From an uncultured Eubacteriales bacterium (GTDB lineage Bacteria > Bacillota > Clostridia > Christensenellales > Borkfalkiaceae), in assembly GCA_949747905.1 (NCBI GenBank), contig CATKEF010000034.1:1-64000 (forward strand): a stretch of 64,000 nucleotides of DNA. Reading direction: 5' to 3'. The notes below the pieces were generated by a model. The model worked only from the letters and a program-made list of their open reading frames with translations, did no database searches and was not told the origin of the DNA. Positions within the stretch are counted from its first letter, which is position 1, and each line of letters starts with the position of its first letter. Position numbers and translations under genes: made by a program. Positions 1,499 to 6,481 of the stretch are shown here, in pieces.

Positions 1499-3580
1499 TT
1501 ATTGTTTCTTGGCATTTGCAAGCAAATCACCGAGCGAAGTACCGGTAATACTTCCTTCACTCCAGGTAGAGAGCTCGTCTTCCTCTCTTCTGGGGGCACG
1601 GGTCTTACGAGGCGAACCTTCCTCGCTTTCCTCGGTATTGCGCTTTTTCTTTTCAACTTCGGGAAGCAACGCCTTAATGGAAAGATTCATCTTTCTCGCT
1701 TCGACGTCGATAGCTATGATTTTAGCATCGACTTCGTCGCCGACATTGAGACAAGTTGCGGGAGTTTCTATTCTCTCGTGGCTAATCTGAGATACATGAA
1801 CAAGTCCGTCGATACCTTTTTCAACTTCGACGAATGCGCCGAAAGGAACTATTCTGACGACTTTACCGTGAACCACGTCCCCTGCGTTGTATTTTCCTTC
1901 CGCAAGGTCCCAAGGCTGAGGCTGAAGTTGTTTATAACCTATTGAAACTTTTCTGTTTTCCTTATCGATTTTCAAAACAAGAAAATCGTATGTCTTGCCG
2001 ATTTCGAGTACGTCTGTTACCGCTTCGGCACCCGTCCAAGAAAGGTCGGAAATATGTGCGAGACAATCAAAACCGTTTACGGAAACAAAAGCACCGAAAC
2101 CTGTAGCGCGCTCAACCTTGCCGATTACAATATCGCCTACGGAAATACTTGCGAAAAATTCTTCCTCTCTTTCAAGTCTTGCGGCGTCTCTTGCCTGACG
2201 TTCCTCTTCGAGAATAACGCGCTGCGAAGCGATAATTTCCTTCTTGCCGCTTCTCTTTACTTCGAGGGCGCGCAGTCTCAATGTTTTACCGACGTATTTC
2301 GTCATATCTTTTACGAAACCGGGACGAATCTCTTTTGCGGGCACGAAGACCGAGAAAGTTCCCATCTGAGCTACCAGACCGCCTTTATTGGAGCCTGTAC
2401 AAACGACGGAAAACTCCTTGCCGCCTTCTATTTCGGCGCTCAGGACTTCTTCCTGCTGCAGAACCTTAATCATTTTCTGTGAAAGTTTAAGATTCGGCTT
2501 AAGCTCCACGACAAGCAAATCAATCGTTTCCCCGATTTTTTCGGCATAATCGGATGCCTTATATTCTTCGCAGTCCAACTCGTCCTTGCTCAGCGCTATT
2601 TCTTTTTTTGAGAAGGGCAAAAGAATTTGCAAGCCTTCGTCGTTTGCTTCCGAAATAGTAGCCTGAACGGTCTGACCTTTTCTGAACTTTGATTCGTTGT
2701 CGATTTTAGCAACCACATCATCCATTGTAGGATTAGTTGCCTTGACTTCTGTGTTTTCTGCCATCTTTAAGAGAACCTCCCGGGTTTGCTCGTCCGGTGT
2801 CGATGCACCCGAAACGATACCTGCACTTTTGAAATTATTTAGCCTGGAATAATCCAGGTCATCGGCATCGGAAAGTCTGAAAACATTGCCGCAGTGCTTT
2901 TTCGCAAGTTCGTACAACTTATTGGTATTACTGCTGTTCAGACCGCCGACTACCAAAATCGCATCGCAAGTCTTTGCAAGCTGTTCTACTTCCTTTTGCC
3001 GTTCTATAGTAGTATAACAAATAGTCTTAAAAACAGCAACTGTTTTTTCACAGACTTTTTTAATATTTTTTATAATTTTTTCAAATTTTTCAGCCGAAAA
3101 CGTGGTCTGACATACCACACACAGGTCTTTTTGCCTGAGTTTATCCGGAATTTCGTCACAATCGTTTAAAACTTCGGCGTTCGGACTGCACCACCCCAAT
3201 AGACCCGTCACCTCGGGATGTTCGGGCTCGCCCACGATAATCACATACTTTCCCAAAGAACACTGTTCTTTAACTATTTTTTGTGTTCTCCGAACAAAAC
3301 CGCATGTACAGTCAACGATTTTGATATTGCGTTTATTACATAACTCGTAATAATTTTCCGGCACTCCGTGCGAACGAAAAACAACCGTAGCACCGTCAGG
3401 GATATCTTCCAGGCGGTCGACAACCTTCAATCCCTTATCGTTAATGGCTTTAACCACAACGGCATTATGAATTATTTCACCCAAAATATAAGTATTTTCG
3501 GGAGCAAGACTCATCGCTGTATCCACAGCGGATTTGACGCCAACACAAAAACCACTGTTCTTTGCAAGAATTACTTTCAC
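1499..3580 (-). CDS. ispH: Fusion of IspH (HMBPP reductase) with ribosomal protein S1
   Basis: A 693-residue two-part protein. Residues 1 to about 285 are IspH, the [4Fe-4S] reductase that makes IPP and DMAPP in the last step of the MEP isoprenoid pathway. The cluster cysteines are seen in NSGFCVGV, DCTCGFVRR and KTICYTT. Residues from about 295 hold four S1 RNA-binding repeats, beginning near FRKGQTV, KEFSVVC, GDIVIGKVERATGFGAFV and GDVVHGKVVRIVPFGAFV, then a charged tail ending TSLGDLLANAKKQ. This IspH-S1 fusion is a known arrangement in Clostridia. The start is GTG at 3580, with an AGGA-type ribosome site overlapping the end of plsC. It is the last gene of the baiN-like / aroH::cmk / plsC operon. 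Confidence 0.95.
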   Translation of the reverse strand: MKVILAKNSGFCVGVKSAVDTAMSLAPENTYILGEIIHNAVVVKAINDKGLKVVDRLEDIPDGATVVFRSHGVPENYYELCNKRNIKIVDCTCGFVRRTQKIVKEQCSLGKYVIIVGEPEHPEVTGLLGWCSPNAEVLNDCDEIPDKLRQKDLCVVCQTTFSAEKFEKIIKNIKKVCEKTVAVFKTICYTTIERQKEVEQLAKTCDAILVVGGLNSSNTNKLYELAKKHCGNVFRLSDADDLDYSRLNNFKSAGIVSGASTPDEQTREVLLKMAENTEVKATNPTMDDVVAKIDNESKFRKGQTVQATISEANDEGLQILLPFSKKEIALSKDELDCEEYKASDYAEKIGETIDLLVVELKPNLKLSQKMIKVLQQEEVLSAEIEGGKEFSVVCTGSNKGGLVAQMGTFSVFVPAKEIRPGFVKDMTKYVGKTLRLRALEVKRSGKKEIIASQRVILEEERQARDAARLEREEEFFASISVGDIVIGKVERATGFGAFVSVNGFDCLAHISDLSWTGAEAVTDVLEIGKTYDFLVLKIDKENRKVSIGYKQLQPQPWDLAEGKYNAGDVVHGKVVRIVPFGAFVEVEKGIDGLVHVSQISHERIETPATCLNVGDEVDAKIIAIDVEARKMNLSIKALLPEVEKKKRNTEESEEGSPRKTRAPRREEDELSTWSEGSITGTSLGDLLANAKKQ

Positions 3581-3586
3581 TTTTAA

Positions 3587-4243
3587 TTATTTTTTCCTTT
3601 TATCGGTGACGGATTCGAGCTCTGCATATAATTCGTTAAACTTATTCAGCAAAATTCCGTCGCATTCCTCAATGTCTTCTGCCGTTACTTTTTTGTCGTA
3701 ATAATATGAAAATTCAAAAGGTTCGCCGTAAAAAACCTTTGCCTTTCTGAATGCCTTGATTTTCTTGATTTGCACAATCGGAATAATCGGGGTGTGCGTC
3801 TTTATAGACAACGCCGCCGCTCCGCTTTTAAATGGCAGAAATTTTGCCTCGGTTTTATTTCTCGTGCCTTCGGGGAAGACGACTATGTGCTCTCCGTTTT
3901 TCAAATATTTCATTGCGGTCATAAGCGCCCTTACGTCCGTACCGTCACGGGAAACCGGAATGCACTCGCATTTTGCCGTAAACCACTTGGAGACGCCCTT
4001 TTCGAACAGTTCTTTTTTTGCCATGAAATGTACCGGCTTATCGGTTGCCATCACGGGAAGAACGACGTCCATTATGCTTTTATGATTGCACACAAATATA
4101 TATGCGCGGTCGTTGAAACGTTCCTTATGTCCGTATTTTTTGTAGGGAAAAATCGGGTAAATCAAAAATTTATGCACCCGACGCATAAAAGCAAACCACT
4201 TTTCGAATTTATTCGGTTTTTTCTTTTCTTTTTTTTCTTTCAT
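3587..4243 (-). CDS. plsC: 1-acyl-sn-glycerol-3-phosphate acyltransferase
   Basis: Acyltransferase that makes phosphatidic acid from lysophosphatidic acid at the membrane. The HX4D catalytic motif is NHKSIMD (about residues 53-59) and the glycerol-phosphate motif is FPEGTRNK (about 125). At 218 residues it is normal for bacterial PlsC. There is a basic, lysine-rich start and a hydrophobic patch (FLIYPIFPY), suiting peripheral membrane attachment. Its ATG overlaps the aroH::cmk stop by one base, so the two are translationally coupled. The order cmk-plsC-ispH/rpsA is common in Clostridia. Confidence 0.93.
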   Translation of the reverse strand: MKEKKEKKKPNKFEKWFAFMRRVHKFLIYPIFPYKKYGHKERFNDRAYIFVCNHKSIMDVVLPVMATDKPVHFMAKKELFEKGVSKWFTAKCECIPVSRDGTDVRALMTAMKYLKNGEHIVVFPEGTRNKTEAKFLPFKSGAAALSIKTHTPIIPIVQIKKIKAFRKAKVFYGEPFEFSYYYDKKVTAEDIEECDGILLNKFNELYAELESVTDKRKK

Positions 4244-5250
4244 TAAATTTTTTCCTGAATTTTTCTTACTATAAACGCCGCGACTTCCTCTGCGTTCATA
4301 GCGGATGAATCAATAAATACCGCGTCGTCCGCCTGCCGAAGCGGCGCTATCTTACGCATTTTATCTTGTTCGTCACGCAGAATAATCTCTGTTTTCAGGC
4401 TTTCGAAATCGACTGTATGCCCTTTTTCTGTAAGTTCTTTAAATCGCCTTTGCGCCCTTACCTCGGCATCCGCCGTAAGAAAAAATTTGAATTCGGCATC
4501 GGGTAAAACATTAGTGCCAATATCTCTGCCGTCCAGAATACAGGATGTCTCTGCTGCTATTTTTCTTTGCAAACCCACCATTTTTTTACGTACGCAGTCG
4601 AGCGAAGAAACCGTTGACGCAGACATCGAAATTTGCGGTTTTCTGATTTCTTCCGAAACATCCTTTCCGTCGAGAAAAGTCCTTTGGCTGCCGTCAATAT
4701 ATTTTACCTCGATATTGATTTTATCAATAAGCGGTTTAACGGCAATCTCATTACCGCAATCAGCGTTTTCATACATACATTTCAGTGCGCAGGCACGATA
4801 CATAGCGCCAGTATCCAGACAAAGAATACCCAATGTTTCGGCTACGAGCTTCGATACCGTACTTTTACCCCCGCCGGCAGGACCGTCTAGCGCTATATTG
4901 ATAATTTTCGAATAGTCTCTGCGAAGAGATGCTGCCCCATGAAGATAAACGTGTTCGGGCTTACCGCATTTTTCGGTGAGAGCCAATACTCTTATACATT
5001 TTTCCAAGCCGCCGGACATATCCGGCTCTGCGGCTGAAAACAGCGAACAAAAAGAAAAACCCGCTTCTCTTGCCGCTTTTGCAGGATAATATGAACATAT
5101 ATCGTTCGTGTTGGAGAACAACAAAAAAACAATTTCATCGCGAGTAAGCGCATTTCTTTTTACAATTTCTTTCAACAACTCGCCCACGCGCGCTCTGACT
5201 TGCTCTATGCTGTCAAAATCGACGGTAGTAGCCCCTCTTATTGCTTTCAT
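4243..5250 (-). CDS. cmk: Fusion of AroH-type chorismate mutase with cytidylate kinase
   Basis: A 335-residue protein with two domains. Residues 1 to about 112 match the trimeric AroH chorismate mutase of Bacillus (chorismate to prephenate): IRGATTV, YYPAKAAREAGF, EPDMSGGLEKCIRV and HVYL. By eye the active-site residues are kept: R5, R61, E75, R87, Y102 and R110 correspond to B. subtilis R7, R63, E78, R90, Y108 and R116, while C75 of that enzyme is Ser here. From about residue 116 the chain is CMP kinase, with P-loop GPAGGGKS (123-130), LDTGAMYRA and DGRDIGTNV. One uninterrupted frame joins them, so both activities are plausible. No separate aroH stop or internal ribosome site is evident. Confidence 0.92.
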   Translation of the reverse strand: MKAIRGATTVDFDSIEQVRARVGELLKEIVKRNALTRDEIVFLLFSNTNDICSYYPAKAAREAGFSFCSLFSAAEPDMSGGLEKCIRVLALTEKCGKPEHVYLHGAASLRRDYSKIINIALDGPAGGGKSTVSKLVAETLGILCLDTGAMYRACALKCMYENADCGNEIAVKPLIDKINIEVKYIDGSQRTFLDGKDVSEEIRKPQISMSASTVSSLDCVRKKMVGLQRKIAAETSCILDGRDIGTNVLPDAEFKFFLTADAEVRAQRRFKELTEKGHTVDFESLKTEIILRDEQDKMRKIAPLRQADDAVFIDSSAMNAEEVAAFIVRKIQEKI

Positions 5251-5254
5251 TATA

Positions 5255-6481
5255 TTATTCCTTTATAGCGTTTCCGGCGGCAAAACCCGTAGAAAATGCT
5301 ATCTGTAAATTAAATCCGCCGGTAAATGCGTCCACATCAAGGACTTCTCCGGCAAAATACAGACCTTTGACAATCTTACTTTCCATTGTTTTCGGATTCA
5401 CTTCTTTTACGTCGACGCCGCCCGAAGTAATTACGGCTTCGGAAAAATCCCTCAACGATGCAACAAGCATATCAAAATTTTTGATGGTTGTCAACAGTCG
5501 CAATCTCTCGTTTCTGGTTACGGAATTGACCTTTTTTTCGCCGTCCAGGCAACTCCTTTTCAATATTTCATTAATCGTTGCCAAAGGCAAAAGTTCTCTC
5601 AAACAATTAAAAATACTCTTGTTTTTACCAACCTCGAAATCACGCAACAATCTCGAGTTAAGCTGCTCGGAAGTAAGCGCAGGTTTTAAATCAATAGTTA
5701 ATTTTACTGTCCCGGGTTCAAATCTGTTTATTATGCTTGATGCAGACAAAACAGTCGGACCCGAAATCCCGAAATGAGTAAAAAGCAGCTCACCGAAAAA
5801 ATCTCTTATTTTTTTACCGTTATGACAGACGCTGAGATTAACGTTTTTAAGAGAAAGTCCTTGTAGCGATTTAAAATAATCACCTTTTAAATTTATACCA
5901 CAAAGCCCCTGCTTTAAAGGAACGATTTTATGTCCGATTTCTTTTGCAAATTTATATCCGTCACCCGTAGAACCCGTAGACGGATAACTCAATCCGCCTG
6001 TACAAATTATGACGCAGTCAAACAAATACTCACCCTTATCTGTAATTATGCCTGACACAGTACTATTTAAAACTAAGATTTTTTTAACAGGCTCGTTATA
6101 TTTGAATGCCACGCCCGAAGAAATACAATATTTCAGCAAACATTTTGTGACATCGCTCGCTTTATCGGATACGGGAAAGTACCTTGCTCCGCGCTCAAGT
6201 TTTAAAGATAAACCGCCGTTTTCGAAAAATTCGACGCATTTGTCCGGAGGAAATGAATATATTGCGCTTGTGAGAAATCTGGAATTATTGACTACGTTAG
6301 TCAAAAATTCTTCGGGTGAACAATTGTGAGTGACATTACACCTGCCTTTACCCGTAATATAAATCTTCTTCCCGCATTTCTCGTTTTTCTCAAACAGGGT
6401 TACGTTATTTCCGTTCTGCGAAGCGGCATACGCCGCCATAAGCCCCGCAGCACCTCCGCCGATTATAGCTACATTCTTCAT
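5255..6481 (-). CDS. FAD-dependent oxidoreductase of the HI0933/YhiN (BaiN-like) family
   Basis: A 408-residue flavoprotein. It starts with a Rossmann dinucleotide site GGGAAGLMAA (residues 8-17), continues with FEKNEKCGKKIYITGKGRCN, typical of the HI0933 family, and ends with GLYFAGEVLDVDAFTGGFN, the second FAD-contacting motif. Members include BaiN (bile-acid dehydroxylation) and YhiN; most have no proven substrate, so no reaction is assigned. It is the first gene of the aroH::cmk-plsC-ispH operon and may be cotranscribed with oadA upstream, as only an imperfect hairpin (6492-6517) separates them. Confidence 0.88.
   Translation of the reverse strand: MKNVAIIGGGAAGLMAAYAASQNGNNVTLFEKNEKCGKKIYITGKGRCNVTHNCSPEEFLTNVVNNSRFLTSAIYSFPPDKCVEFFENGGLSLKLERGARYFPVSDKASDVTKCLLKYCISSGVAFKYNEPVKKILVLNSTVSGIITDKGEYLFDCVIICTGGLSYPSTGSTGDGYKFAKEIGHKIVPLKQGLCGINLKGDYFKSLQGLSLKNVNLSVCHNGKKIRDFFGELLFTHFGISGPTVLSASSIINRFEPGTVKLTIDLKPALTSEQLNSRLLRDFEVGKNKSIFNCLRELLPLATINEILKRSCLDGEKKVNSVTRNERLRLLTTIKNFDMLVASLRDFSEAVITSGGVDVKEVNPKTMESKIVKGLYFAGEVLDVDAFTGGFNLQIAFSTGFAAGNAIKE

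Follow-up and report, generated by a model that had tools for sequence, protein, structure and literature searches.

We propose that a single open reading frame at positions 4243 to 5250 of the window (the whole 64,000-nucleotide stretch of DNA that was analysed) very probably encodes a bifunctional housekeeping enzyme, a chorismate mutase joined to a CMP kinase, which came about by fusion of operon neighbours. The frame lies on the minus strand, starts with ATG and spans 335 amino acids plus a stop, and the plus strand there is full of stops; the original prediction had given the correct coordinates, and the strand was determined here. It had also described an AroH domain (residues 1–112) and a complete CMP kinase in one frame, which profile matches bore out. 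PF07736 (CM_1) matched residues 1–112 (E value 1.1 × 10−31), covering model positions 1–115 of 116, and PF02224 matched residues 119–332 (E value 7.9 × 10−70), while TIGR01796 (AroH) and the Cmk equivalog model TIGR00017 gave 93.1 and 225.2 bits, above their cut-offs of 82 and 135.55 bits. Together with Foldseek and, for the mutase, the active-site residues, these matches place an AroH-type (class I) chorismate mutase domain at 4915–5250 and a CMP kinase domain (residues 118–335) at 4246–4899, both on the minus strand.

The AlphaFold single-chain model of the fusion had a mean pLDDT of 95.4 and a pTM of 0.81, with both folds confident. Foldseek matched solved structures of AroH enzymes at the front (7r4b, 1com, and 1xho; E value about 1 × 10−11) and of Cmk enzymes at the rear (2cmk and 2h92; E value about 1 × 10−23), and no structure of AroH joined to Cmk was among the matches listed. 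At the junction (residues 113–117; 4900–4914, minus strand), the last AroH helix ends and the first Cmk strand follows with hardly a gap: the model has the helix at residues 104–114, then three residues, then the strand at 118–122. A scan for internal starts found no ATG, GTG, or TTG in frame at this junction, and we therefore rejected a separate kinase translated from an internal start. The junctions of other fusions held either no start codon or mostly GTG or TTG codons without a clear ribosome-binding site. Since the AroH of Bacillus subtilis is a homotrimer (PMC4865297) and the AroH domain is intact here, the fusion would likely form a trimer through its AroH part, so that the trimer suggested in the original prediction is a reasonable expectation.

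The gene sits in a compact cluster on the minus strand. Upstream is an HI0933-family flavoprotein (5255–6481; TIGR00275, 443.6 bits), whose gene ends 4 nucleotides before the fusion's ATG and contains within that end a ribosome-binding-site-like AAAGGA, read directly from the sequence (5259–5264, 8 nucleotides before the ATG). Downstream, the ATG of a PlsC-like acyltransferase (3587–4243; PF01553, E value 3.7 × 10−26) overlaps the fusion's stop (TAATG), followed by an IspH-ribosomal protein S1 fusion (1499–3580; 612 bits with PRK00087, whose cut-off is 624), a fusion type that is already known. The order HI0933, aroH (if present), cmk, plsC, ispH::rpsA was kept at nearly every locus. In most relatives with aroH, aroH and cmk were separate yet adjacent, and the cluster was otherwise unchanged. 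At seven loci from other families of the order (L170:5019–6458, L171–L174, L176, and L177), cmk was fused to the downstream plsC instead. At three further loci (L167 at 4848–6006, L168, and L169), and in genomes G019, G106, and G148 and their congeners, aroH was followed directly by plsC and cmk was missing; these genomes had no PF02224 or PF13189 kinase above cut-off, prephenate dehydratase (PDT) was not found in G019, G106, or G148, and prephenate dehydrogenase (PDH) was not found in G019 or G106.

The window comes from an uncultured gut relative of Clostridia, by way of a metagenome-assembled genome of 1.6 Mb that is 97% complete and fragmented into 87 contigs, which lends some weight to the concern, raised with the original prediction, that a sequencing or assembly error had joined two separate genes. 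Within its own genome the fusion matched nothing but itself. In an order-level survey of 200 genomes, though, a one-frame AroH-Cmk fusion was present in 12 of the 13 genomes sampled from its own family, which lies near Candidatus Borkfalkia, the window's included, and the fused proteins of the 11 others were 55–62% identical to that of the window; named relatives at 59–60% identity include Ca. B. avistercoris and Ca. B. stercoripullorum. These independent assemblies keep one open frame through the junction, and in the window the junction offers a separate kinase no codon at which to start, so an artefact can be ruled out for practical purposes and is vanishingly improbable. The survey yielded four more fusions in two other families of the order. 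In samples from the wider class and phylum, those AroH frames that had room for a fusion partner were retrieved, and AroH-Cmk was confirmed in families f108, f81, f44, f73, f105, f42, f92, f63, and f149. Beyond its own family, the fusion occurs in about ten families, mostly Clostridia, and the search of Clostridia suggested with the original prediction has shown that the window case is not a one-off. AroH had been described as normally separate, which is true of most relatives, yet Cmk fusions recur across Clostridia. Some candidates were discarded: a full-length match in genome G046 is really two genes with a stop between them, and the spanning matches at L012, L014, and L016 are separate adjacent genes.

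That an ancestral neighbour gene had been fused, as first proposed, is strongly supported by the relatives whose aroH and cmk stand side by side as two genes of the same cluster. The two neighbours, which run in one direction, would have become a single gene once the stop of the first and the start of the second were lost. An example may be seen within one genus, where the fused G018 lacks 9 nucleotides that in the separate G046 hold the aroH stop and the cmk start; a before-and-after junction is available inside a single genus. Separate aroH and cmk were the commoner state in the phylum sample. We built a tree of the joined AroH and Cmk domains (73 rows; a quick, unrooted tree with several open forks), in which the gene pair must have switched between the fused and the separate state 12 times or more, a count that takes in fusions and splits alike, such that some changes could be splits. 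A single clade for all fused rows was rejected (AU p value 0.0002). The fusion most likely arose several times in Clostridia by the joining of operon neighbours. The one own-family genome without the fusion (G042, from another genus) has no AroH and no CMP kinase match, carries an AroQ-PDT-type gene, and has apparently lost the fusion gene.

Both halves retain the residues expected of working enzymes. The AroH residues singled out at the outset (R5, R61, E75, R87, Y102, and R110) are all present and align with R7, R63, E78, R90, Y108, and R116 of B. subtilis AroH, the last of which we take to be an active-site residue. Positions R63, R90, Y108, L115, and R116 were invariant in fused (37/37) and separate (36/36) relatives, and R7 was present in 36 of the 37 fused rows, the remaining row having a gap. 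The active-site roles of the B. subtilis residues other than R116 have been described (PMC5458464, PMC10782440). At the position of B. subtilis C75 the window protein has Ser, which is about as common there as Cys. In the kinase, the P-loop DGPAGGGKST (residues 122–131; 4858–4887, minus strand) contains D122, G123, P124, G126, G128, K129, and S130, each at least 97% conserved across the Cmk alignment, and all near-invariant positions of the Cmk family, those of the P-loop and the nucleotide-binding site included, are present. Pairwise dN/dS within fused groups was 0.04–0.21 where measurable, well below 1 in both halves, though these values are rough as many synonymous distances were saturated. 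In eight other AroH domains (L201, L202, L203, L205, L211, L212, L216, and L217), Ala, Gln, or Ser takes the place of Glu78, and this occurred only where position 75 is Asp (8/8); in these domains the catalytic carboxylate of the mutase has putatively been swapped in nature. The AroH at L224 has Asp75 together with Glu78.

The fusion also appears to be the sole source of both activities in its genome. Following up the suggestion to look for another chorismate mutase, we found one AroH (the fusion) and no AroQ mutase, and likewise one PF02224 kinase (the fusion) and no PF13189 match except the fusion gene itself, although with the genome 97% complete a missing piece could account for this sole status. 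Chorismate synthase, PDT, and PDH were all present. Across the order, AroH and AroQ occurred together in none of the 36 AroH genomes, against about 25 expected if independent, a comparison for which the nominal p value is too small as the genomes are related. PDT was not found in two own-family members (G158 and G170), nor PDH in several; family members may differ in how far they need prephenate. One might suppose that the AroH part is catalytically dead and serves as a mere trimer-forming scaffold for CMP kinase, since AroH is trimeric in solved structures and trimerisation of the kinase would follow. We consider this very unlikely and rejected a dead AroH domain, because the domain keeps its catalytic residues and no second mutase was found in a genome that also has chorismate synthase, PDT, and PDH. 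Taken together, the conserved sites, sole-copy status, pathway genes, and low dN/dS support two enzymes on one chain that are both predicted to work: the N-terminal AroH domain would convert chorismate to prephenate, and the C-terminal domain would phosphorylate CMP and dCMP.

If the AroH part makes the chain a trimer, three kinases would be held near the mutase active sites. A rival reading is cross-talk, in which the binding of substrate or nucleotide in one domain alters the other and links aromatic amino acid and pyrimidine pools. The linkers of fused proteins are mostly 1–7 residues, so the kinase must adjoin the AroH end that bears the active-site residues Y108, L115, and R116, and the pTM of the model may suggest a preferred placement of the domains. 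Short linkers would be expected regardless, because separate AroHs mostly end 1–8 residues past the core (their genes stop 1–8 codons beyond the conserved LRPDL) and separate Cmks start near their first strand, with cmk usually beginning within about 120 nucleotides of the aroH end or overlapping aroH. Moreover, two fused proteins manage with longer linkers, of 13 and 33 residues, the Cmk-PlsC and IspH-S1 fusions of the same cluster share no theme with this one, and a study of an AroQ mutase fusion (CM-CDT) found no catalytic benefit from it (PMC10520331). We therefore regard cross-talk as unlikely. A scenario with the kinase placed above the active sites of the mutase in a trimer, with nucleotide state (CMP/ATP) tuning flux to Phe and Tyr, and with the repeated independent fusions selected for this link seems quite unlikely. 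Nothing found points to cross-regulation, nor to the originally suggested co-regulation in any sense that goes further than equal expression. The bifunctional enzyme from operon neighbours remains our preferred reading, and its likely benefit would be equal, coupled production of both enzymes only, or none.

We compared the fusion with known systems. The front half shares its fold and catalytic residues with B. subtilis AroH, the Clostridium thermocellum structure 1xho, and the members of TIGR01796 and PF07736, and many separate Clostridial AroHs share the same gene cluster; the window protein differs in adding a C-terminal CMP kinase and in the Ser at the Cys75 position. The rear half matches bacterial Cmk (TIGR00017, PF02224) over its full length, keeps the P-loop and nucleotide-binding residues, and is about 40% identical to solved Cmks, but it has no start codon of its own and has AroH in front. 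Cmk is likewise joined to a housekeeping enzyme in PanC-Cmk (PRK13477), AroA-Cmk (PRK11860), and Cmk-Der (PRK09518), with a different partner in each; the window protein scored far under the cut-offs of these models (229 bits against 524, 181 against 943, and 166 against 953, respectively), with the Cmk half alone matching. AroQ mutases also occur within two-enzyme proteins (PheA, TyrA, and the CM-CDT of PMC10520331), though the AroQ fold is unrelated and the partners are aromatic-pathway enzymes, whereas the partner here is a nucleotide kinase. We found no paper on an AroH-Cmk fusion among open-licence papers and no model for the pair in the sources searched, although it may be annotated elsewhere; as far as searched, the architecture is not already widely annotated with a known function. 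This suggests that, while Cmk fusions as such are already known, the AroH-Cmk pairing may be new.

Neighbouring genes of this tightly conserved cluster have repeatedly ended up as one multi-domain protein (AroH-Cmk, Cmk-PlsC, and IspH-S1), which calls for caution in fusion-based predictions of functional links, as unrelated enzymes can become joined. The fused and separate pairs are a natural set for testing effects of fusion on activity or oligomeric state. AroH was also found joined to other partners, with two cases of AroH-aminotransferase, one of AroH-DAHP synthase, and two of class II dehydroquinase-AroH (L208:4747–6318, L213:2095–3606, L215:4547–5755, L209:4030–4884, and L210:4706–5584). 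At L214:326–1897, a CMP kinase lies at the C-terminal end of a 523-amino acid frame that has no Pfam match over roughly its first 290 residues; this is possibly just an open frame extending upstream of cmk.
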